A stretch of 64,000 nt of DNA, from contig NZ_JXSY01000018.1 in NCBI RefSeq assembly GCF_004329715.1, forward strand, positions 248,001 through 312,000, given 5' to 3'. Every line of letters begins with the position of its first letter. Position 1 is the first letter of the stretch. The position numbers were made by a program, and so were the translations under genes. Source of the stretch: Bowmanella sp. JS7-9. Lineage in GTDB: Bacteria; Pseudomonadota; Gammaproteobacteria; Enterobacterales; Alteromonadaceae. Positions 1,925 to 38,619 of this stretch are shown here, in pieces. The notes beneath the pieces are model-generated. The model saw nothing but the letters and a program-made list of their open reading frames with translations, searched no databases and was not told where the DNA came from.

Positions 1925-2386
1925 GTGTCGATCTTAGATCAGGTTGTTGTTAACGCGCAAGTTAAAAACGTTGCCGTGAACCGCGACCATCCCGAAATGT
2001 TATACGGTTCGATAGATTATCTATCCGATTCCATTCTATCCCTGTCCCAACAGATAGCCACGCTTAATGATATGAAGTCCCAACTACAGCGCGAATTGCT
2101 TGTCGCGTTGGAAGCGTCAGGCGCTGGTTCACTGGATGCAAATTCCAGTTCCGTGAAAGCTGATACTGGTAAGTACAAAGTGACTGTACGCCAAAATGCT
2201 ACACGCAAAATCCTCGATGCTGCCGAATTAAGCCGCGTGGCCCCAGAAGTCGTGAAGAACGAACCCAAACTGGACGCACGCAAACTGAATGGCTTGGCGA
2301 TTAACGCGCCTGAACGCTATCAGCAGGCTTTGAGATACATCGAAACGTCCTATTCAAAACCCAGTTATTTAATCGAAAAACAATAA
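1925..2386 (+). CDS. Phage early protein of unknown function
   Basis: A 153-residue protein. The GTG start is chosen because AGGAG lies about 10 bases upstream. Residues 25 to 65 (SIDYLSDSILSLSQQIATLNDMKSQL) form a likely coiled coil, and the rest is charged with no catalytic motif that I can see. It is the first gene of the rightward operon and sits 27 bases before a Sak4-like recombinase. Similar small coiled-coil proteins precede recombinase genes in other phages, so an accessory role in DNA recombination or nuclease control is possible, but this rests on position only. Confidence 0.5.
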   Translation: MSILDQVVVNAQVKNVAVNRDHPEMLYGSIDYLSDSILSLSQQIATLNDMKSQLQRELLVALEASGAGSLDANSSSVKADTGKYKVTVRQNATRKILDAAELSRVAPEVVKNEPKLDARKLNGLAINAPERYQQALRYIETSYSKPSYLIEKQ

Positions 2387-2413: not shown

Positions 2414-3208
2414 ATGTTTGATCTTGCTTCGCAAGTTATCAAAGGGTCGTCGTCTAACCTGAAAATGCCGATCATGTGTATTCATGGGATCGGCGGGGTC
2501 GGTAAATCGACCTTTGGTGCGAGCGCCCCTAACAACTTATTTATCCCCATCGAAGATGGTTTAGGAATGCTTGCGGCTAATCCTAACGTGACTATGACGC
2601 CGGTTCCGCAAAGCTATGCCGAAGTTGACCATATCATCGACGCGCTACTGACACAGCAGCACAGCTACAAATGGCTGGTGATTGACTCGATCACCTCGCT
2701 GGAAAAGAAGCTGTGGCAAGACCTGTGCAAAAAGTACAACCACGAAAGCATTGAAGCCTTTGGCTATGGCAAGGGATTCAACATGGCACTTGAGATTATG
2801 AGCAAGTTTATTCTCAAATTGCGCCAGCTACGTGACCTTAAAGGCATGGGCGTGATCATCATTGCGCACAGCAATGTGACCACCGTTAACAAACCAGACA
2901 AAGACCCTTATGACCTGTACGGCATTCAGGTGAACAAGAAGCTGGCGGATTTCATTCATTCGCAATGTGATCTGGTGGGCTTTGCTGAAAAAGAAGTGTG
3001 CATTCGCACCGAAGATAACGGATTCAGCCAGCGCGGCAAAGCCATTGAAACCGGTCAGCGCTTGTTGCACTGCTACTCAACTGAGAAGTACAGCAGCAAA
3101 AACCGCTACGGCATGGAAGATATGCGCCCAATCCCACTCGACTTTAACGCTCTGATGCAGGCAATCGCATCAAAAATCCCACAACAACCTAAATCAGTAC
3201 AGGAATAA
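2414..3208 (+). CDS. Sak4-like RecA-fold ATPase (AAA_24 family)
   Basis: A 264-residue P-loop ATPase. The Walker A motif GIGGVGKST lies around residues 25 to 33 (Lys31), and the Walker B strand is WLVIDSIT near residue 94. The middle (YGKGFNMALEIMSKFILKLRQL, then GVIIIAHS) is typical of the PF13479/Sak4 group. In phages such proteins are single-strand annealing recombinases that work with a partner single-strand binding protein. The ATG at 2414 is preferred over the TTG at 2408 because AAGGA sits 6 bases upstream of it. The DUF669 gene follows 5 bases downstream, matching the known Sak4-DUF669 pairing. The exact activity here is inferred. Confidence 0.8.
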   Translation: MFDLASQVIKGSSSNLKMPIMCIHGIGGVGKSTFGASAPNNLFIPIEDGLGMLAANPNVTMTPVPQSYAEVDHIIDALLTQQHSYKWLVIDSITSLEKKLWQDLCKKYNHESIEAFGYGKGFNMALEIMSKFILKLRQLRDLKGMGVIIIAHSNVTTVNKPDKDPYDLYGIQVNKKLADFIHSQCDLVGFAEKEVCIRTEDNGFSQRGKAIETGQRLLHCYSTEKYSSKNRYGMEDMRPIPLDFNALMQAIASKIPQQPKSVQE

Positions 3209-3213
3209 CAATC

Positions 3214-3765
3214 ATGGCATTTTTTGACCCAACTAAATTCGACCCGCAAGCCGCCAAACAGGCAATGTTCAGCGCTATTCCAGAGGGCGAATATCGAATA
3301 ATCATCACTAAAGCTGAACCAACACGCGGCCAAACCGGCGATATGAGCAAATATCCTGGTCGTTGGTATGACTACCTGCAATTTGAATGTGACGTGTTGA
3401 TGCCTGACGGCGGTGCGCGTAGCTACTCTGAACGCTTTATGACCAATCACGAAATGGCCGATCACGACTCTTTCAAAGGATTGGTGGCCGGTGGTCAAAC
3501 GCGCATGTTTGAACTGTATCAGGCGCTTGGTTTGGCTGGCACGGTTGTTCCAGATGATCAGATCAACAGTCGATTGTCAGGCCAAATGCTCATGGCACGA
3601 ATTGGCTTGAAGAAGAAAGAGACAAACTACCCGAACTACATTGCCCAATTAAAAGCCATGCCCAATACCGGCCACGTTGGCGGTACAACGCCAGCACAAC
3701 CGGCTATGCAACCTCAACCAGATGCGGGGCTGGCAGCGAATCAAAACCCTTACGGTAATTACTAA
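3214..3765 (+). CDS. DUF669 protein, probable ssDNA-binding partner of Sak4
   Basis: A 183-residue protein with the features of DUF669: an N-terminal segment (IPEGEYRIIITKAEPTRG), the strand YDYLQFECDVLMPDG, and RIGLKKKETNYPNYI ahead of a low-complexity tail rich in Pro, Gln and Asn (residues 150-183). DUF669 members are found beside Sak4 recombinases and have been described as single-strand DNA-binding proteins. The gene is 5 bases after the Sak4-like gene, supporting a joint recombination module. The flexible tail resembles the protein-interaction tails of single-strand binding proteins (inference). Confidence 0.7.
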   Translation: MAFFDPTKFDPQAAKQAMFSAIPEGEYRIIITKAEPTRGQTGDMSKYPGRWYDYLQFECDVLMPDGGARSYSERFMTNHEMADHDSFKGLVAGGQTRMFELYQALGLAGTVVPDDQINSRLSGQMLMARIGLKKKETNYPNYIAQLKAMPNTGHVGGTTPAQPAMQPQPDAGLAANQNPYGNY

Positions 3766-3775
3766 CTGAAACGGC

Positions 3776-3803
3776 AGGCCGGATCAGCGCTCCGGCCTTG
3801 TCT
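3776..3803 (+). terminator. Stem-loop between DUF669 gene and next gene
   Basis: AGGCCGGA and TCCGGCCT pair perfectly around TCAGCGC and are followed by TGTCTT. It could be a weak intrinsic terminator or an RNA stability element inside the operon, since the next gene starts 14 bases later. Confidence 0.45.
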
Positions 3804-3816
3804 TGAGGAACCACAA

Positions 3817-4401
3817 ATGAACAACACGGCAAATTACGCTGAAATGATTTTTCAGCGCTTATCAATCATTGAGCAACAGAATAAACAGTTACAACAATCG
3901 CTGAATAAGCTGGTGAATCAACTAGCCAGCAATGATGCACAAGACCAACTGAATGCGCAGTTGGCCCTTTTGCCAAAAGTGACGCCTGCGGTAAATGTCA
4001 CGAAAGCTATCCAAGCGTATGAGCAGATAGAAGCGGCTAACGATGCGGTGTTCGATGAACCCGCCAACGATGAAGTCTTTATGACCGATGAACGCCGTGC
4101 CGACTACTTGGTACGGTACGCACACCGCGAAGAATGTTTAATGAACAACCCTAAGATCCTGGTCACGATATGCCGGTTAATTAAAGAGGGTTACACGCAA
4201 GAGGATATTGCAAAGCGGATTAACCAGAATTTTCATCCGTTCACGGTGGCGAATGTGGTGCATTCTCTACTGTGGGCAAGGGCTAAGGATTACATTCACG
4301 TTGACGATCCGTACAGATGCAAACTGACACCGCAAGCTGACTTCCACATTACACAAAAGTATTTCCTCGATGTGATTTCTAAGAGGAAAGATTATGAATA
4401 A
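3817..4401 (+). CDS. Unknown phage protein with coiled coil and HTH-like region
   Basis: A 194-residue protein that I do not recognise. Residues 10 to 40 are rich in Gln, Leu and Asn with a heptad pattern, a likely coiled coil. Residues 105 to 165 (ICRLIKEGYTQEDIAKRINQNF, then FTVANVVHSLLWARAKDYI) look like a helix-turn-helix of the kind that senses or binds DNA. A GAGGAA ribosome-binding site lies before the ATG. Its stop overlaps the start of the nuclease gene by 8 bases. A DNA-binding adaptor for the neighbouring recombination proteins is possible, but that is speculation. Confidence 0.5.
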   Translation: MNNTANYAEMIFQRLSIIEQQNKQLQQSLNKLVNQLASNDAQDQLNAQLALLPKVTPAVNVTKAIQAYEQIEAANDAVFDEPANDEVFMTDERRADYLVRYAHREECLMNNPKILVTICRLIKEGYTQEDIAKRINQNFHPFTVANVVHSLLWARAKDYIHVDDPYRCKLTPQADFHITQKYFLDVISKRKDYE

Positions 4402-5467
4402 TAAACTGACCGATCTGATTTACGGGCGCTACGCTGCTAACGATGAATCATTCCGGCCCCATCACGGGGCATCACAAGGCGGTGAACCCTGCCTGCGAAA
4501 ACAATGGTATTCATTCCGGCATGTGTCCAAAGTCGTGTTTGATGGACGAATGCTGCGACTGTTCGCGCGGGGGCATCGTGAAGAACAGTTTTTCGTGGAT
4601 GATTTGCGCAGTATTGGACTGGACGTGCAAAACGTTGACCGTGCCGGTAATCAGTTCCGGCTTGTTTGTCCTGACAACAAGCACATAGGCGGTAGTTGTG
4701 ACGGCTACTTTCGGGCCGGATTCGATATTGATGTTATACCCCGTGGCACGATTGGCCTGTGCGAATTTAAAACATTTAATGCTAAGTCATTTAAAAAGCT
4801 GGTGGACGCGCAATCGGTGGCAGATGTGAAGCCATTGCATTACGCACAGATGCAGCTTTACATGGGCTGGTCAAAACTGGGCTGGTGCATTTATCTGGCT
4901 GTCTGCAAAGACAATGACGAGCTGTATTGCGAAATTGTCAGGTTTAACCAGTCCGATTTCATGTACCACGAAAACAATATGATTCGCGTGGTTGCAGCGA
5001 ATGAGCCGCCAGAACGCATCACGGAAAATAAATCAGATTTCTCTTGCCGGTATTGCGACCGCAGCGATGTTTGTTGGGAAGAACAGTTTACACTGAACAT
5101 TAGTTGCCGGACGTGTGTGTATGCCATGGCGGCTAATGATGGTTCATGGCGCTGCCAGCATGAAGCCGGTGATCCGATTATCGGTGACTTGGGGCATGAG
5201 ACAACCAAAGGCTGTGACAATCATTTAATCATTCCAGCGCTACTTGCGAAAGTGGCAACGCCAATTGGCAGCGACGTTGAAACCAACTCAATTACTTATG
5301 AAACACGGCAAGGTAATCACTTTGCTAACGCACGCGCAGGCGGGTTTACGAGTTGGGAATTGGCAAAGATTATCAGCGTGAATCCATCGCTGCTTGATGC
5401 CGGTTCACTGGTCGCAATCAAAGCGGCCTTTGATGCAGAAATTAAAGACGTGCAGGGGGCAGCATGA
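4394..5467 (+). CDS. PD-(D/E)XK nuclease with Cas4-like iron-sulfur cysteines
   Basis: A 357-residue phage-type exonuclease. The nuclease core shows Asp103 (GGSCDGYF) and Glu124-x-Lys126 (CEFKTF), followed by the conserved Gln helix (HYAQMQLYMGW). Cys33 (EPCLRKQWYSF) with C218-x2-C221-x5-C227 (CRYCDRSDVC) matches the four-cysteine pattern that holds a 4Fe-4S cluster in Cas4 and AddB. A second set of Cys/His (SCRTC, WRCQH, KGCDNH) at about residues 236 to 276 suggests a zinc site. Between a Sak4-type recombinase and a helicase, it most likely resects DNA ends for recombination (inference). Start and stop overlap the neighbouring genes. Confidence 0.75.
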   Translation: MNNKLTDLIYGRYAANDESFRPHHGASQGGEPCLRKQWYSFRHVSKVVFDGRMLRLFARGHREEQFFVDDLRSIGLDVQNVDRAGNQFRLVCPDNKHIGGSCDGYFRAGFDIDVIPRGTIGLCEFKTFNAKSFKKLVDAQSVADVKPLHYAQMQLYMGWSKLGWCIYLAVCKDNDELYCEIVRFNQSDFMYHENNMIRVVAANEPPERITENKSDFSCRYCDRSDVCWEEQFTLNISCRTCVYAMAANDGSWRCQHEAGDPIIGDLGHETTKGCDNHLIIPALLAKVATPIGSDVETNSITYETRQGNHFANARAGGFTSWELAKIISVNPSLLDAGSLVAIKAAFDAEIKDVQGAA

Positions 5468-5721
5468 ATTACTTTGTTGCTGTATGTGTGTCATACCTGT
5501 TTATTTTTCTGCGTGCGGGTCAGCAAATAAATGTGATTCGTGGCTATTACCGTCGCATACCTCTTTATTCATTCGCTATCGCTTTTTGTGAAGTCACAGC
5601 GGTTCACCTGATTGTGCAAGACACGGTTTGGATCGCAATCCCGCTTGGTGCTGGTGGGTGCCTGGGCGCGTGGCACGCAATGAAAATGAATAAAGTTGTC
5701 CGGGGGGATCGCACGATATGA
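5464..5721 (+). CDS. Small membrane protein of the phage module
   Basis: An 85-residue hydrophobic protein with about three predicted membrane segments (residues 3-17, 32-50 and 53-70) and a basic C-terminus (MKMNKVVRGDR). It overlaps the nuclease stop by 4 bases and the helicase start by 4 bases (ATGA), so it is translationally coupled to both. I do not recognise a family. It has no lysis genes beside it, so holin is not supported; a membrane anchor or defence-related role is possible but unproven. Confidence 0.5.
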   Translation: MNYFVAVCVSYLFIFLRAGQQINVIRGYYRRIPLYSFAIAFCEVTAVHLIVQDTVWIAIPLGAGGCLGAWHAMKMNKVVRGDRTI

Positions 5722-7343
5722 AGTTACGCGATTACCAAGATGAAGCGGTGACAGCAATCAATCATTACTTTATTGGTAAGCGCGGTGATAATCCGCTGGT
5801 GGTCGTGCCGACCGCTGGCGGCAAGTCGCTTATCATCGGTGAATACATAAAGCGTTGCGTGCAGAAATGGCCGGACACGCGCTTTATGATGATTACCCAT
5901 CAAAAAGAACTGATTGAACAAAACTTTGAAAAGCTACTTGCGCTGCACAATGAGATCGACGCGGGTATTTATAGTGCAGGGATTGGCCGCAAAGAAACAG
6001 ATAACCAAGTTTTGTTTGCCGGTATTCAGTCCGTTCATGCCAAGGCGAATGCAATTGGCCGCGTGGATGCCCTGCTTATAGATGAATGCCACCTTGTACC
6101 GAAACAAGGTACGGGCCGGTATCTGAAGTTTATCAACGATATGCGCCAAATTAACCCGCGTTTAAAAGTGATTGGCTTCAGTGCTACCCCCTACAGAATG
6201 CAAGGTGGGTTGCTGTGGGAAGGAAAAAATGCCTTGTTTGACGGTATAGCCTATGAAGTTCCTGTCAAAAAGTTATTGAATGACGGGTATATCACCCCCC
6301 TGGTTACGCCAACGGGCGGAATTAACACTCGCATTGATTTGACCGGTGTTGACGTAAGCAACTTTACCGGCGATTACAAACAATCACAAATGGCAGAACG
6401 GTTTAACCGGCCACACTTGGTAGTCGCTGCCTGTCGTGAACTGGTATCGCTCGGCCATGACCGGAAATCATGGATGATCTTCGCTGCCAGCGTTGACCAT
6501 GGCATTGCGCTGACAAATGAATTGTGTGAACGCGGTATCGACGCGCGATTCGTGGACGGCACCACCCCTAAGCGGCAGCGTGAAGAACTGTTGGAATCAT
6601 TTAAGGCCGGTCGCTTCCGTGCGATTGTGAATGTTGGTGTATTAACTACTGGTTTTGATGCGCCAAACGTTGATCTGATTGCGCTGTTGCGTGGCACCAA
6701 GTCCACAAGTTTGTATATACAAATGTGTGGTCGTGGCGTCAGGTTGTTTGACGGCAAACAAGATACCCTCGTATGTGATTTCGCAGATAACATTCTCACG
6801 CACGGGCCTTTCGATGCGCCCCGCGTGTTCAGTCAGCGTGAAAGCACAACGGTTGGTAAGACGCCGACCAAGCAATGTCCCGATTGCGACTTTGCCTGCG
6901 CAATTCAGTTATCCACTTGTCCCAATTGCCAATACATTTTCCCGCGTAAGGAACGCGAAGTCAGTCACCATGACCAAGCGGCCAAGGTGTCTATTATGTC
7001 GTCGGAAAACAGCACGCAAATTGCGGCTATCAGCCATATAGAAGCGTGTGTGTACCAGAAAAAGGGTAGCCCGCAGTGCATACGCATTGATTACATGAAT
7101 AGCATTTTCAAAGTGGCAACTGAGTTTGTGGCACCTAACGGCCATGATTTCGCCAAGCGCAAAGCCATGCAGTTTTGGAATGCGCTAATTCCTGAACGCA
7201 TCATGCCTACTGACATAGCGACCGCTGTTGAACTGTTGAATTTGTATGGCCGCTACAGGGTGCAATCAATCGAAATAACAACCAACACCAAATACCCGCA
7301 AATTGTCAGCAGGAGATTAAACAATGACGCTCGCAGTGCATGA
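5718..7343 (+). CDS. Superfamily II DNA helicase (DEAD/DEAH, RadD-like)
   Basis: A 541-residue helicase. Motifs in order: an N-terminal Q-type LRDYQDEAV, motif I VPTAGGKS, motif II LIDECHL, motif III GFSATPYR, motif V TTGFDAPNVD and motif VI QMCGRGVRL. A four-cysteine zinc ribbon follows (CPDCDFAC, STCPNC, about residues 386-408), then a C-terminal domain of about 130 residues. The layout resembles RadD/YejH and phage helicases that unwind branched DNA. It is coupled to the small membrane protein upstream and overlaps the next gene by 20 bases. The likely role is replication or recombination of the element (inference). Confidence 0.85.
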   Translation: MKLRDYQDEAVTAINHYFIGKRGDNPLVVVPTAGGKSLIIGEYIKRCVQKWPDTRFMMITHQKELIEQNFEKLLALHNEIDAGIYSAGIGRKETDNQVLFAGIQSVHAKANAIGRVDALLIDECHLVPKQGTGRYLKFINDMRQINPRLKVIGFSATPYRMQGGLLWEGKNALFDGIAYEVPVKKLLNDGYITPLVTPTGGINTRIDLTGVDVSNFTGDYKQSQMAERFNRPHLVVAACRELVSLGHDRKSWMIFAASVDHGIALTNELCERGIDARFVDGTTPKRQREELLESFKAGRFRAIVNVGVLTTGFDAPNVDLIALLRGTKSTSLYIQMCGRGVRLFDGKQDTLVCDFADNILTHGPFDAPRVFSQRESTTVGKTPTKQCPDCDFACAIQLSTCPNCQYIFPRKEREVSHHDQAAKVSIMSSENSTQIAAISHIEACVYQKKGSPQCIRIDYMNSIFKVATEFVAPNGHDFAKRKAMQFWNALIPERIMPTDIATAVELLNLYGRYRVQSIEITTNTKYPQIVSRRLNNDARSA

Positions 7344-7608
7344 CCAAGCGATCAATAACATGATCGATATGCTGAAAGACCATGTAGCCAAAGAACAGCT
7401 AATGACCTATGTAGGGCTGTACTTTAAGTATGGCCCCGTGCTGAACGAAAAAGATATTTGTGATTTTTTCGGGCTGACCCCGCGTGTAATGAAATACCAA
7501 GTCAAACAAAACCAATTCCCGATCCGTGTCGTGCGTCGTGGGCATCAACTGTTTGCGCCTACCGCATCACTAATTGGATTTTTATACCAAGGAACAGACA
7601 ATGACTGA
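7324..7608 (+). CDS. Small HTH DNA-binding protein
   Basis: A 94-residue protein. Residues 38 to 70 (NEKDICDFFGLTPRVMKYQVKQNQFP, then RRGHQLFAP) form a winged-helix/HTH of the MerR-like or excisionase-like type found in many mobile elements. The start overlaps the helicase stop by 20 bases and the end overlaps the methylase start by 8 bases. A regulatory or directionality role is possible; no partner site was identified. Confidence 0.55.
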   Translation: MTLAVHDQAINNMIDMLKDHVAKEQLMTYVGLYFKYGPVLNEKDICDFFGLTPRVMKYQVKQNQFPIRVVRRGHQLFAPTASLIGFLYQGTDND

Positions 7609-8122
7609 TTATTTAGGCAGTAACACAGCGCTTGAATTGCGCGATTCATACGGCACCCCGCAATGGTTATTTAACGCTGCAAATGATGAATTCTTTTTTG
7701 ATTTAGACGCGGCAGCCAACGATGAAAACCACAAGGTAGATAAATACCTGACAAAAGAAGTGGACGCATTAAGCATAAGTTGGGTAAACGATATTGGTGC
7801 CAAGCGGATATGGATTAACCCGCCATATTCCGATATTGGCCCGTGGACTGAAAAAGCGCTAATTGAAAGTGAATTAGGTGCAACAATTGTTATGCTAATT
7901 CCGGCTACCCCTGACGTGCGCTGGTGGCCTAAACGGGTCAGTGAAATACGTTTTATTTCGCCTGGGCGAATCAACTTTATTGATCCTGCCACTGGCCTTG
8001 AAAAGAAAGGCAACACTAAACCGTCTGCTTTTTTAATCTGGCGTCCATATTTAAACGACCAAACATTCACCCGATATGTGCCAAAAACACAATTGCAGCG
8101 ATTAGGTGGGTACAAAAAATGA
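7601..8122 (+). CDS. Phage Dam-type DNA N6-adenine methyltransferase
   Basis: A 173-residue protein of the phage Dam superfamily (PF05869 type). The catalytic motif is NPPYSDIGPW near residues 71 to 80. An N-terminal RDSYGTPQWLFNAAN and FFDLDAAAND are the usual family opening, and VRWWPKRV and GRINFIDP follow. The ATG at 7601 (AAGGA upstream, family-like N-terminus) is preferred over the TTG at 7574. No cognate restriction nuclease is visible nearby, so it more likely protects or marks element DNA than forms a restriction system (inference). The target, GATC or another site, cannot be read from the sequence. Confidence 0.8.
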   Translation: MTDYLGSNTALELRDSYGTPQWLFNAANDEFFFDLDAAANDENHKVDKYLTKEVDALSISWVNDIGAKRIWINPPYSDIGPWTEKALIESELGATIVMLIPATPDVRWWPKRVSEIRFISPGRINFIDPATGLEKKGNTKPSAFLIWRPYLNDQTFTRYVPKTQLQRLGGYKK

Positions 8123-8467: not shown

Positions 8468-8510
8468 GGTCGGTCGTGAAGCCCCTTAGAATGCGGGCTT
8501 CGGGCCACCG

Positions 8511-8573
8511 TCAGCGGATTCAAAATCCGCCGGTGGCGACACCTTGCCGGTTCAAGTCCGGCCTCTGGTACCA
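8511..8573 (+). tRNA. 3' fragment of tRNA-Leu(CAA), probable attR
   Basis: The sequence contains a complete anticodon arm (GCGGA, loop TTCAAAA, TCCGC; anticodon CAA at 8521-8523), a long variable arm of the Leu type (GGTG/CACC), a T arm (GCCGG TTCAAGT CCGGC), the acceptor strand CTCTGGT and the ending ACCA. The required 5' acceptor strand ACCAGAG and D arm are absent at the expected distance, so this is not a working gene. It is best read as the displaced 3' end left by integration into tRNA-Leu. The crossover probably lies near the anticodon loop (inference). Confidence 0.8.
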
Positions 8574-33984: not shown

Positions 33985-36657
33985 ATGTCAGAAATGATGC
34001 AAACAGACCTGGATCCACAAGAAACCCAGGAATGGATCGACGCGTTAGAAGCGGTTCTTGACGAAGAAGGACCCGAGCGCGCGCATTTTCTGCTGGAAAG
34101 TCTGATTGAAAAAGCGCGCCGCAGTGGCGCGCATTTGCCGTATGACGCCACTACCGCATATGTAAATACCATTCCTGCCGGTCAGGAACCTACGATGCCG
34201 GGCGACCAGAGCATCGAAGCACGTATCCGTAGCGCGATTCGCTGGAATGCCATGATGATGGTGGTGCGTGGTTCTAAAAAAGAACTGGACTTGGGTGGTC
34301 ATATTTCCAGTTTCGCGTCTTCTGCCATGTTGTACGATGTGGGCTTCAACCACTTTTTCCGTGCGCCGAATGATAAAGATGGCGGCGATTTCCTGTTTGT
34401 ACAGGGCCATGTCTCCCCAGGTATCTATTCACGCGCGTTCGTGGAAGGTCGTCTGAGCAGTGCGCAGCTGGACAAATTCCGTCAGGAAGCCGATGGCCAA
34501 GGCTTGTCTTCTTACCCACACCCGCGATTGATGCCTGACTTCTGGCAATTCCCGACTGTGTCTATGGGCCTAGGCCCGATGCAGGCGATTTATTTGGCCC
34601 GTTTCCTGAAGTACCTGACCGATCGCGGCATTAAAGATTGTTCCGAACAGCGTGTCTGGTGCTTTATGGGTGACGGCGAGGTGGACGAACCTGAATCATT
34701 GGGTGCCATCGGTTTGGCCAGCCGTGAAGGTCTGGATAACCTGACATTTGTGATTAACTGTAACCTGCAGCGTTTGGATGGGCCGGTACGTGGTAACGGC
34801 AAAATCATTCAGGAGCTGGAAGGCACCTTCCGTGGCGCTGGCTGGGAAGTGATTAAAGTGGTGTGGGGACGTTATTGGGATCCATTATTTGCCCGCGATA
34901 CCTCCGGCAAACTGATTGAACTGATGAACGAAACCGTTGACGGTGAATATCAGAACTACAAAGCCAAAGGCGGCAAATACACCCGCGATAACTTCTTCGG
35001 TAAGTATCCGGAGTTGAAAGAAATGGTCGCTAATATGTCTGACGAAGACATCTGGCGTTTAAACCGTGGTGGTCACGATCCAGTGAAAGTGTACGCCGCT
35101 TATCATAAGGCGAAGAATACTCAGGGTCGTCCACAGGTCATTCTGGCAAAAACCGTAAAAGGTTATGGCATGGGCGCTGCGGGTGAAGGTAAGAACATCG
35201 CCCACAACGTTAAGAAAATGGATTTGGAAGCGGTCAAACACTACCGTGATCGTTTTAACATTCCTGTTTCAGATGAAGCGCTGAAGGACTTCCCTTACTT
35301 CCGTTTCGATGACGACAGCGTAGAAATGAAATATCTGCGCGAGCGTCGTGATGCGCTGCATGGCTTTATGCCGCGCCGTTTGCCGCAAAGTACCAAGCAT
35401 TTTGACACGCCAGATTTAAAAGCCTTCGAAGCTATTACTAACGGTTCGGGCGAGCGTGAAATCTCGACCACGATGGCTTTCGTGCGGGTACTGACGGCGA
35501 TGCTCAAAGACAAAAAGATTGGTTCACGGGTTGTACCAATCATTCCGGATGAGGCGCGTACCTTTGGTATGGAAGGCTTGTTCCGTCAGGTTGGGATCTA
35601 TTCCAGTCAGGGTCAGAAGTATGAGCCGCAAGACTCAGATCAAGTGGCGTATTATCGCGAAGATAAGAAAGGCCAGGTATTGCAGGAAGGCATCAACGAA
35701 CTGGGTGCTATGTCATCCTGGTTAGCTGCCGGTACTTCATACTCGACCAACGACGAGCCGATGATCCCGGTCTACATCTATTACTCTATGTTTGGTTTCC
35801 AGCGCGTGGGCGATTTAGCCTGGGCAGCAGGTGATAGTCAGGCGCGAGGCTTCCTGGTTGGTGGTACGGCAGGTCGTACAACGTTAAATGGCGAAGGCTT
35901 GCAGCATCAGGATGGTCATTCGCATATTCAGGCTAATCTGATCCCGAACTGCATTACTTATGATCCAACCTATGGCTATGAAGTAGCAGTGATAGTGCAA
36001 GACGGTATCCGTCGTATGTTTGGCGAACAGGAAAACGTCTTTTATTACCTGACAGTGATGAACGAAAACTATGTTCAACCAGCGATGCCTGAAGGCAGTC
36101 AGGAAGGCATTATTAAAGGGATCTACAAGCTGGATACCTTGACCGCCAGCAAAGCCAAACACAAAGTGAAGTTACTGGGTTCCGGTACCATTTTGCGTCA
36201 GGTACGCGATGCGGCCGAGATCCTGAAAAACGATTTCAACATCAGTTCTGAAGTTTACAGCGTGACCTCGTTCAATGAACTGGGCCGTGATGGTCTGGAT
36301 GCGGAGCGTTACAACATGCTGCACCCAACAGCCAAACCACGTAAGGCATATATCACTGAAGTGCTGGAAAAAGGCTTTGATGGCCCAACGATTGCGGCGA
36401 CTGACTATGTCAAAGCCTATGCAGATCAGGTTCGAGCCTTTGTTCCAGGTCAGTACAAAGTGTTAGGTACGGACGGGTTTGGACGCTCCGACAGCCGCGC
36501 TAACCTGCGTCGTCACTTTGAAGTGGACGCACAGTTTATTGTTGTGGCCACACTGCATGAGTTGGTTAAGGCCGGTGAGTTTGATGGCAAAGCGTTGGCA
36601 AAAGTCATCAAAGACTATGGCATTGATGCTGACAAGCTCAATCCACTTTACGCCTAA
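33985..36657 (+). CDS. aceE: Pyruvate dehydrogenase E1 component (homodimeric)
   Basis: An 890-residue thiamine diphosphate enzyme that decarboxylates pyruvate and passes the acetyl group to E2. The ThDP motif is FMGDGEVDEPESLGAIGLASREGLDNLTFVINCNLQ, and the blocks GGHISSFASSAMLYDVGFNHFFR and MIPVYIYYSMFGFQRVGDLAWAAGD are typical of AceE. AGGAAAG precedes the ATG. It is followed by aceF after 21 bases. Length and order match the gammaproteobacterial complex. Confidence 0.96.
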   Translation: MSEMMQTDLDPQETQEWIDALEAVLDEEGPERAHFLLESLIEKARRSGAHLPYDATTAYVNTIPAGQEPTMPGDQSIEARIRSAIRWNAMMMVVRGSKKELDLGGHISSFASSAMLYDVGFNHFFRAPNDKDGGDFLFVQGHVSPGIYSRAFVEGRLSSAQLDKFRQEADGQGLSSYPHPRLMPDFWQFPTVSMGLGPMQAIYLARFLKYLTDRGIKDCSEQRVWCFMGDGEVDEPESLGAIGLASREGLDNLTFVINCNLQRLDGPVRGNGKIIQELEGTFRGAGWEVIKVVWGRYWDPLFARDTSGKLIELMNETVDGEYQNYKAKGGKYTRDNFFGKYPELKEMVANMSDEDIWRLNRGGHDPVKVYAAYHKAKNTQGRPQVILAKTVKGYGMGAAGEGKNIAHNVKKMDLEAVKHYRDRFNIPVSDEALKDFPYFRFDDDSVEMKYLRERRDALHGFMPRRLPQSTKHFDTPDLKAFEAITNGSGEREISTTMAFVRVLTAMLKDKKIGSRVVPIIPDEARTFGMEGLFRQVGIYSSQGQKYEPQDSDQVAYYREDKKGQVLQEGINELGAMSSWLAAGTSYSTNDEPMIPVYIYYSMFGFQRVGDLAWAAGDSQARGFLVGGTAGRTTLNGEGLQHQDGHSHIQANLIPNCITYDPTYGYEVAVIVQDGIRRMFGEQENVFYYLTVMNENYVQPAMPEGSQEGIIKGIYKLDTLTASKAKHKVKLLGSGTILRQVRDAAEILKNDFNISSEVYSVTSFNELGRDGLDAERYNMLHPTAKPRKAYITEVLEKGFDGPTIAATDYVKAYADQVRAFVPGQYKVLGTDGFGRSDSRANLRRHFEVDAQFIVVATLHELVKAGEFDGKALAKVIKDYGIDADKLNPLYA

Positions 36658-36678
36658 CGGACACGAGGAGTTATTAAT

Positions 36679-38619
36679 ATGGCTGAATTAAAAGACGTAT
36701 TAGTCCCGGATGTCGGTGGCGAAGCGGTTGAAGTGATCGAAATCTGTGTTGCGGTTGGCGACACAGTGGATGCAGAAGCGTCTCTGATTACGGTAGAAAG
36801 CGATAAAGCAAGCATGGATATCCCGGCACCGTTTGCCGGTAAGGTTGCTGAGATTCTGGTCAAGGTTGGCGACAAAGTCAGCCAGGATACGCTGATCATT
36901 AAGATGGAAGCGGGTCAAAGCGCTGCAACGGCAGCCAGTGAAGTAACTGAGCCGGCTGCATCTTCGCCAGCTCCTGCTTCTGCACCTGCTGCCAGCCCAG
37001 CTGCATCGCAGGTGATTGAAGTGACCGTGCCAGACATCGGTGATGCAGAAAATGTCGATGTCATCGAAGTGCTGGTCGCCGAAGGCGATCGCATTGAGGC
37101 CGAACAGGGTCTTATCACCCTGGAAACCGATAAAGCGACCATGGACGTGCCGGCGCCACAAGCCGGTGTGGTGAAATCGATTAACGTAAAAGTGGGTGAC
37201 AAAGTGTCGAAAGGCTCACTGGTGCTGATGCTGGAAACCGCTGCAAATGGTGAGACAACCAGTACTGCACCTGCTGCACCCGCAGAGCCCGCTGAGGCCG
37301 GTCAGGTAGTCGGTGATGAAGTGATTGAGGTAACTGTGCCGGATATTGGTGATGCTGCCGATGTGGATGTCATCGAGGTATTAGTTGCCTCAGGTGATGA
37401 GATCGCAGCTGAGCAGGGCCTGATTACTCTGGAAACCGATAAAGCGACCATGGATGTCCCTGCGCCGAAGGCCGGTAAAGTGGTCGATGTTAAAGTAAAA
37501 GTGGGTGACAAAGTGTCCAAAGGCTCACTGGTTCTGACCATGCAGGTCAGTGGCAGTAAACCGGCTGCACCGGCTGCACCAGCGCCGGCGGCAAAGAGCA
37601 ACGATACGGTGACCGCATCCGTTGCCCCATCTGCACCGAAAGCACCACCAGTACCTCATCATCCGTCCGCGGGTGACAAACCGCATAGCGGCAAAGTGCA
37701 TGCATCGCCTTCAGTGCGTCGCATTGCACGGGAATTTGGCGTGGATTTAACCCAGGTTAAAGGTACAGGTCGCAAAGGGCGTATTCAGCCAGAAGACGTG
37801 AAGTCCTACGTGAAATATGAACTGTCGCGTCCGAAGATGACCGCCAGTTCGTCCGTGGCAGCGGGCAGTGGTGGCTTGCAGGTATTGCCACCACCGAAAG
37901 TGGATTTCAGTAAGTTCGGTGAAGTGGAAGAAGTGCCACTGACACGTATTCAGAAGATTTCCGGTCCTAACCTGCATCGCAACTGGGTGACTATCCCTCA
38001 TGTGACGCAGTTTGAAGAAGCGGATATCACTGAACTTGAGGCATTCCGCAAAGAGCAGAATGATCTTGCTGCGAAGAAAAAGCTGGATGTGAAGATCACC
38101 CCGCTGGTATTTATGATGAAAGCGGTGGCCGACGCGTTGAGAGCCTATCCGGTATTCAACTCTTCGCTGTCTGAAAGTGGTGAAAGCCTGATCCAGAAGA
38201 AGTTCTGCCACATCGGGATCGCAGTTGATACGCCAGCCGGTCTGGTCGTGCCGGTAGTGCGCGACGTGGATAAGAAAGGTATTCACGAATTATCCCGTGA
38301 ACTGATGGAAATCAGTGTCAAAGCCCGCGACGGTAAATTAAAAGCCGCGGATATGCAGGGCAGCAGTATGACGATTTCAAGCCTTGGTGGGATCGGTGGA
38401 ACCAAGTTCACCCCTATTGTAAATGCACCTGATGTCGCCATATTGGGTGTATCGCGCAGCGATATTAAACCGGTATGGAATGGTAAAGAGTTTGAACCAC
38501 GTCTGATGGTGCCATTATCACTGTCTTATGATCACCGGGTGATCGATGGCGCGGTAGCGGCTCGATTTGCTGTGCATTTACGTAACGTACTGGGCGATAT
38601 TCGCCAATTATTGCTGTAA
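36679..38619 (+). CDS. aceF: Dihydrolipoamide acetyltransferase E2 with three lipoyl domains
   Basis: A 646-residue E2 core protein. Three lipoyl domains lie at about residues 2-78, 114-190 and 213-289, with the lipoylated Lys in ESDKASM, ETDKATM and ETDKATM. Ala/Pro-rich linkers separate them. The E3-binding domain ([28 protein letters not shown]) follows, then the acetyltransferase with [10 protein letters not shown] near the end, which holds the catalytic His. Lipoyl domains 2 and 3 are nearly identical, pointing to duplication. GAGG lies upstream of the ATG. Confidence 0.95.

Follow-up and report, generated by a model that had tools for sequence, protein, structure and literature searches.

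The 64,000-nucleotide window of the Bowmanella sp. JS7-9 genome analyzed here (G000:C10:248001-312000, part of a 3.44 Mb assembly) contains a run of genes encoding a Sak4-like ATPase, a DUF669-type single-stranded DNA-binding protein (SSB), a Cas4-like nuclease and a RadD-like helicase, preceded by a gene of the DUF7173 type (gene X) and interspersed with two additional genes, termed A and B. In all likelihood, these sequences comprise the early single-strand-annealing recombination/replication module of a temperate phage, in which the DUF7173-type protein would act as partner of the nuclease and genes A and B are carried as cargo. The module lies among the early genes of a prophage of ~60.4 kb that has tRNA-Leu(CAA) sequence at both ends, and its core, namely, Sak4, the DUF669 SSB, the Cas4-like nuclease and the RadD-like helicase, is a recombination module of a known kind that is widespread in tailed phages. 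In many phages, temperate and lytic alike, it is modules of the Sak4 type that drive recombination and thereby mosaicism, and such modules have been trialled for recombineering outside Escherichia coli.

Core enzymes and their prophage setting

Assignment of the Sak4-like protein to its family is strong, as judged from its sequence. The protein passes the AAA_24 domain test (PF13479, E=4.5e-37; 128 bits versus a cut-off of 27), matches phrog_124, annotated as 'Sak4-like' (1.6e-44), presents both a Walker A motif (GIGGVGKST) and a Walker B-like motif (LVIDS), and corresponds to the sole PF13479 match in its genome. The nuclease matches phrog_1990, annotated as 'Cas4-domain exonuclease' (5.3e-79), and has relatives in 402 matching phage records. 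When six phage nucleases were aligned, the catalytic residues D103, E124-x-K126 and Q152/Y156 were found to be invariant, as were four cysteines of the iron-sulfur (Fe-S) type (C33, C218, C221 and C227, in the pattern C...C-x2-C-x5-C), predicted to bind a cluster, and an extra C-terminal element of four cysteines (C238/C241/C254/C274). The PD-(D/E)XK motifs and the first cysteine pattern are shared with CRISPR Cas4 and AddB-type Fe-S nucleases, whereas the extra four-cysteine element sets the window protein apart from CRISPR Cas4, with the match to the Cas4b profile being weak (0.0045). No cas genes, cas1 and cas2 included, were found among the neighbors of the nuclease gene, which lies in a phage early operon with no CRISPR context. 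The helicase matches phrog_16 (1.8e-97) and shares with E. coli RadD (PDB 6jde, 7r7j) the superfamily 2 (SF2) helicase core (1.1e-64 over residues 3-395, relative to 6jde) and a Cys4 motif found after that core, whereas the C-terminal third of the protein is unrelated in sequence.

The SSB was assigned by way of its relatives. The protein found in the same position in Pseudoalteromonas phage C7 is a clear DUF669 protein (3.6e-20), and iterated profiles seeded with phage homologues, including the C7 DUF669 protein, recruited the window SSB at E<1e-3; a value of 8.7e-21 was obtained after the window protein had itself been included in the profile. P[WF] appears within ten residues of the C-terminus in 50 of 64 relatives of the SSB, usually in the form of PPW with basic residues after it. 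Such a PPW and basic tail stands where E. coli SSB presents its acidic tip. The PPW-type tail of the module SSBs is also reminiscent of the PPF tail needed by the SSB of phage HK620; the window protein presents NPYGNY.

To describe the distribution of the module, 119 loci containing a relative of the nuclease, drawn from phages, viral contigs and prophages, were grouped into 66 clusters at 80% nuclease identity. The gene order X-Sak4-SSB-Cas4-Helicase was seen in 28 of these clusters and the order Sak4-X-SSB-Cas4-Helicase in another 12, with the remainder being mostly truncated contigs or clusters without X or without a detectable helicase. Annotated examples presenting the same order as the window include Pseudoalteromonas phages C7 and H40/1, Idiomarinaceae phage 1N2-2, Moraxella phage Mcat22 and Pseudomonas phages PSASB_03 and PaMx25. 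Indeed, C7 and H40/1 contain homologues of the five core genes in identical order, despite C7 being a phage of unrelated genome type, and a prophage-like locus (L047) in a genome of the same bacterial family contains the same module followed by a similar methyltransferase gene; in both C7 and L047, the cargo is different or absent. Related modules, namely, those of C7, H40/1, 1N2-2, the Moraxella Mcat phages, Nipunavirus-type Pseudomonas phages and Pseudomonas 73/Burkholderia KL1, differ from that of the window in that none includes A or B, the genes found in the corresponding slots vary, and some are without X or have X between sak4 and ssb. The Sak4 and exonuclease of PA73/KL1 have featured in earlier discussion as a conserved system for recombination (PMC3483164).

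The pairing of a gene encoding a PF13479 annealing ATPase with an adjacent DUF669-type SSB gene is likewise seen in the Sak4-SSB module of HK620 (Hutinet et al., 2018; PMC5928155). According to that work, an ssb gene adjoins as many as 80% of the sak4 genes of phages (PMC5928155), and phage sak4 genes are commonly found beside DUF669/SSB and helicase genes (PMC8093625). HK620, however, contains accessories of the lambda/P22 type (Abc2-like, Arf position) in place of the Cas4-like nuclease and RadD-like helicase, and the window SSB is a distant protein without a tail resembling NDYPPF.

Several results weigh against these assignments. The Pfam DUF669 score of the window SSB itself (E=0.0026; 18.3 bits) falls below the cut-off of 21, a single-sequence search with this protein as query found itself only, and the protein, which ends in NQNPYGNY, is without the P[WF] tail (window 3730-3762). 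Taken alone, the DUF669 assignment of the window protein is weak, relying on its relatives and on its position next to sak4. In the case of the helicase, the score obtained with NF053632 RadD (298 bits) lies under the 720-bit equivalog cut-off, and for this reason the protein is referred to as RadD-like rather than RadD. Moreover, because the surveyed loci were gathered through the nuclease, all co-occurrence frequencies are conditional on the presence of that protein.

The original prediction, made from the letters of this DNA, had described a run of six open reading frames (ORFs) spanning positions 2414-7343. Each of these ORFs is indeed present on the + strand, and the matches cited above bear out the naming of a Sak4-like ATPase, a Cas4-like nuclease and a helicase, as well as the idea that recombinase, SSB-like protein, nuclease and helicase form a module, seen here to recur across the surveyed loci. 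The proposed DUF669 SSB remains tentative, relying on its recruitment by the iterated profile of its relatives, its own Pfam score being insufficient, while the bounds of the module require correction, with the true start lying one gene earlier, at 1925 (gene X).

From these likenesses, we infer the biochemical activities of the module proteins, the order of events and the role of gene X to be as follows. The Cas4-like PD-(D/E)XK Fe-S nuclease would resect phage DNA ends to yield single strands, with Cas4-type nucleases being thought to produce recombinogenic 3' overhangs (PMC5704561). The DUF669 SSB would coat these single strands, and Sak4, stimulated by the SSB, would anneal complementary strands; in HK620, single strands are annealed by Sak4 with stimulation from the DUF669 SSB encoded next to it, an effect mediated by the C-terminal NDYPPF residues of that SSB (PMC5928155). 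The RadD-like ATPase may then remodel branched intermediates. In E. coli, RadD serves as an accessory factor in strand exchange, depending on RecA and speeding up the reaction that RecA carries out (PMC8887467); the protein also binds SSB (PMC10238739). The product of gene X would act together with the nuclease, either positioning the enzyme on DNA or handing its single strand to Sak4 and the SSB. As the phage replicates, concatemers would thereby form, ends would be repaired and recombination with related DNA would take place.

Examination of the surrounding sequence revealed an intact tRNA-Leu(CAA) at C10:196120-196206. An exact 20-bp repeat of its anticodon arm recurs at window positions 8512-8531, 60,367 bp downstream of the intact tRNA, with these being the only two occurrences of this attachment (att) repeat in the whole genome. 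The second copy is followed by another tRNA 3' half, and the two 3' halves differ (window 8490-8573 and C10:196120-196206). Although the repeat is short, this arrangement fits integration of the element within the anticodon arm of tRNA-Leu(CAA), leaving the other 3' half at the right end. Between the att copies lie genes encoding a terminase, a head-tail adaptor/portal protein, a tail fibre, internal virion proteins, a primase/helicase and a tyrosine integrase, and the same element is present in IMG/VR as a 59.8 kb viral contig. As such, the module is part of a prophage rather than an ordinary chromosomal operon, a point missed in the original prediction, as reflected in the integrase, terminase and att repeat. 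With the same high probability as the explanation as a whole, of which this forms a part, the prophage is that of a temperate phage whose gene content is podovirus-like and whose integration site is tRNA-Leu(CAA).

Gene X and the nuclease

Gene X was found in 50 of the 66 clusters, and in 47 of the 57 clusters in which sak4 is present with at least 700 nt of upstream sequence. The window protein matches phrog_2480 (1.6e-5), and 39 of 44 aligned sequences of the gene X family match PF23791 (DUF7173); among the relatives with which the window protein clusters, 39 of 43 do so. In the AlphaFold2 model of the protein (pLDDT 86), a long helix is followed by a small alpha/beta part. A fold search of the PDB with this model yielded no match. 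By contrast to the empty PDB search, Foldseek comparison with BFVD identified the PD-(D/E)XK exonuclease of Tsukamurella phage TIN4 (probability 1.00, E=1.1e-4), together with phage proteins of unknown function, a Gp157-annotated protein (3.3e-4) and a 'host-nuclease inhibitor' (0.23). Independently of the fold search, the gene X protein of L047 was found to match phrog_434, a profile of RecE-like exonucleases, at the C-terminal end of that profile (0.0017).

For profile comparison using hhalign, TIN4 orf36 was aligned with relatives from Gordonia and Rhodococcus phages that are annotated as 'Cas4 family exonuclease'. Columns 21-147 of gene X aligned with columns 270-391 of the nuclease with a score of 36.2, whereas scores of no more than 15.4 were obtained in 20 column shuffles. 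When considered alone, the beta and helical parts of gene X aligned to the same collinear segment with scores of 25.5 and 16.4, respectively. As controls, reversed profiles scored 12.5-12.9, the nuclease domain alone scored 12.8 and shuffles of the C-terminal domain scored no higher than 19.3. In these actinophage exonucleases (TIN4 orf36, PF12705/DUF2800), it is thus the C-terminal ~125 residues that match the DUF7173-type family; there, the domain is fused to the nuclease, whereas in the window it is encoded by a separate gene three genes upstream. No free-standing DUF7173 hit was obtained in the first 50 kb of TIN4. The regions brought together by the fold and profile matches are window positions 1925-2386 and, in locus L192, positions 36642-37838.

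Because relatives of gene X form the C-terminal domain of actinophage Cas4-family exonucleases, we propose that the gene X product works as partner to the nuclease, with the DUF7173-nuclease match amounting, at the level of predicted homology, to a gene-fusion (Rosetta-stone) link. No report of such a link was found in the literature searched. We judge the chances to be about even that DUF7173 proteins represent the free-standing form of a domain otherwise fused C-terminally to phage Cas4-family exonucleases and, at the same time, a hitherto unrecognised, obligate partner of the nuclease in the Sak4/SSB/Cas4/RadD-like module. The survey thus shifts interest from genes A and B to DUF7173, a family conserved in the module and tied to the nuclease through domain fusion in actinophages. 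In this manner, a long-unassigned phage family becomes directly testable and a complete set of five genes becomes available for recombineering trials.

A partnership between gene X and the nuclease has to be weighed against the possibility that gene X encodes an independent early protein, such as a receptor-binding protein or a Gam/Gp157-like inhibitor of host nucleases. The fold matches include the Gp157-annotated protein and, much more weakly, the 'host-nuclease inhibitor' noted above, and in Firmicutes phages, genes resembling Mu gam and Sfi21 orf157 are found upstream of sak4 (PMC8093625). The partnership is further called into question by the window gene X protein itself, a distant family member with no Pfam hit, by the modest TM-scores of the TIN4 match (0.44/0.19), by the profile match to the nuclease C-terminal domain being remote, though above all controls, and by the placement of the fused X-like domain in a different branch of nucleases (PF12705/DUF2800). 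In addition, in the one paper found to name DUF7173, gp38 of phage SD286, a protein of this family, was recently reported to bind a host receptor and to act as an adsorption inhibitor (PMC12946066, 2026), a claim of a role in host adsorption with which the nuclease reading of DUF7173 conflicts. The SD286 genome, however, has its gp38 gene in an early region, with a primase gene upstream and genes encoding an AAA ATPase, a YqaJ-type nuclease and an SF2 helicase downstream, where a receptor-binding protein would hardly be expected; given this position, a role involving DNA would be more natural for gp38 than would receptor binding. At the same time, the PDB search, being empty, recovered no solved Gam structure, DUF7173 relatives adjoin sak4, ssb and cas4, at times lying between sak4 and ssb, and the profile match to the nuclease C-terminal domain points to the nuclease. 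An independent role for gene X is hence considered possible, yet rather unlikely. A function as an end protector resembling Mu Gam or Ku was also entertained but is retained only within this alternative, with the PDB search having offered no match.

Genes A and B as cargo

The original prediction had put forward the two ORFs at 3817-4401 (gene A) and 5464-5721 (gene B) as candidate new subunits and proposed asking whether these always travel with the module. They do not: both are missing from each of the other 65 clusters and from the L047 module, which comes from the same bacterial family. Instead, genes A and B occupy variable slots, since both the occupants of and the lengths of the gaps at the SSB-Cas4 and Cas4-helicase positions differ among the relatives. 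Gap lengths, measured from the first possible start codon and so approximate, reach 150 nt or more between SSB and Cas4 in 32 of 64 clusters; between Cas4 and the helicase, they are 150 nt or more in 26 and less than 60 nt in 22 of 49 clusters. Elsewhere, the slots are occupied by genes encoding a deoxyribonucleotide phosphatase, a DksA-like zinc finger protein, a DNA methylase, a pseudouridylate synthase, a P-loop NTPase and small winged-helix proteins.

Gene A is an orphan: searches covering the module loci, phage records and viral contigs, as well as genome contigs and 395 genomes from the order, detected no relative. Its sequence is that of a Q-rich probable coiled coil with a possible helix-turn-helix, the match to HTH_38 being only 0.16. 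A weak match to phrog_20467 (1.2e-4) carries the label 'HNH endonuclease'; as the match spans only residues 109-156 and the label has no other support, assignment of gene A as a nuclease was rejected and the segment was treated as a possible helix-turn-helix.

Gene B, by contrast to gene A, is one of a widespread family of three-helix phage membrane proteins, for which viral contigs yielded 54 relatives (L138-L191) and in which Q20, N23 and G68 are invariant and E43 is nearly so. The AlphaFold2 model of the protein (pLDDT 83) comprises three long helices (residues 3-26, 29-52 and 55-80). No Pfam family was found in a Pfam search, nor was any fold match found in the PDB, where the best overlap, with the SMR transporter Gdx-Clo (E=8.7), is meaningless. 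Gene B does match phrog_7045, labeled 'holin' (4.5e-5), as do 34 of 36 relatives. Nonetheless, its designation as a bona fide holin was not accepted, given the poor fit of its context, with gene B sitting between the nuclease and the helicase and its relatives being found in early/replication regions. Genes flanking these relatives encode T7-lysozyme-like amidases (6 of 39 flanking genes), a pyrophosphohydrolase, an exonuclease, a polymerase and a ligase. In Pseudoalteromonas phage RIO-1 (L039), a B-family ORF (5995-6246) lies wholly inside the pyrophosphohydrolase gene (5679-6278) in another frame, and is thus an overlapping gene. An apparent fusion of the B relative to the RIO-1 dATP/dGTP pyrophosphohydrolase was dismissed, as the B relative is an ORF in a different frame within the annotated gene.

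On the basis of these sequence comparisons, genes A and B are taken to be replaceable accessory cargo rather than subunits, with B being of independent ancestry. Were they instead integral subunits, A could serve as a DNA-binding loader and B as the membrane anchor of a recombination/replication factory. Both genes are co-directional with the core genes and, given overlaps of 8 nt between A and cas4 and of 4 nt between B and each of its neighbors, they are probably co-translated with the enzymes; the presence of B relatives in early/replication regions, near polymerase, ligase and exonuclease genes, would likewise fit a membrane-bound replication factory. Yet A and B are absent from all 65 other clusters, the same-family module included, the same slots are filled elsewhere by unrelated genes, and no other B locus has Sak4 nearby, with one such locus offering a single marginal hit to the Cas4 profile (1.3e-5), making a subunit role improbable. 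Less probable still, to the point of being nearly discounted, is that the genes comprise a host DNA-repair or anti-phage defence operon of the Cas4/helicase type residing on the chromosome. Pairs of a Cas4-like nuclease and an SF2 helicase are known in suspected defence loci (YprA-like; PMC5704561), and PADLOC returned weak helicase hits of a sort common to many SF2 proteins. PADLOC, however, completes no system, the module lies inside a prophage together with terminase, portal/adaptor, tail, primase and integrase genes, and the module is found in hundreds of lytic and temperate phage records.

Gene layout

The features considered are listed in Table 1. The six ORFs from Sak4 to the helicase form a single tandem run, in agreement with the original description of one operon with overlaps, although overlaps are confined to the second half of the run (A/Cas4, 8 nt; Cas4/B, 4 nt; B/helicase, 4 nt). 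Plausible Shine-Dalgarno sequences precede most of the starts of the module genes, which are presumably co-transcribed. A simple promoter scan returned fewer sites than were seen in shuffled sequence. The Sak4 start was placed at the ATG at 2414, with the TTG at 2408 offering an alternative, while the methyltransferase was translated from the codon at 7604, an ATG being present at 7601.

Table 1. Positions in the window of the module genes and adjacent features.
Feature	Position	Strand	Evidence
Gene X, DUF7173-type, 153 aa, GTG start; predicted nuclease-partner subunit	1925..2386	+	phrog_2480, neighborhood survey, AlphaFold2 model, profile match
Sak4-like ssDNA-annealing ATPase (RecA/Rad51-type core, PF13479)	2414..3208	+	Pfam, PHROGs, Walker motifs
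DUF669-type SSB-like protein	3214..3765	+	Sub-cut-off Pfam score, iterated profiles, position beside sak4
Gene A, orphan, 194 aa, Q-rich probable coiled coil with possible helix-turn-helix; cargo, SSB-nuclease slot	3817..4401	+	
Cas4-like PD-(D/E)XK nuclease, Fe-S-type cysteines and extra C-terminal four-Cys element	4394..5467	+	phrog_1990, motifs
Gene B, membrane protein with three transmembrane helices; cargo, nuclease-helicase slot	5464..5721	+	Viral-contig relatives, phrog_7045
SF2 helicase-like ATPase, RadD/YejH-like, C-terminal Cys4 zinc motif	5718..7343	+	phrog_16, RadD PDB 6jde
Phage Dam-type adenine methyltransferase (PF05869, 4.3e-41), downstream in same early operon	7604..8122	+	
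Right attachment remnant, 3' part of tRNA-Leu(CAA)	8512..8573	+	20-bp exact repeat at 8512-8531

Two probable prophage regulators flank a divergent control region, namely, a 251-aa protein with a repressor-like N-terminus of the phrog_5736 type and an unassigned C-terminal portion (860-1615) and the product of an 80-aa ORF on the opposite strand (357-599). Finally, between the two att copies, C10:229578-243083 (L003 1578-15083) encodes a giant polyvalent phage protein of 4501 aa that contains helicase- and methylase-like stretches and a DarB-like antirestriction C-terminus.

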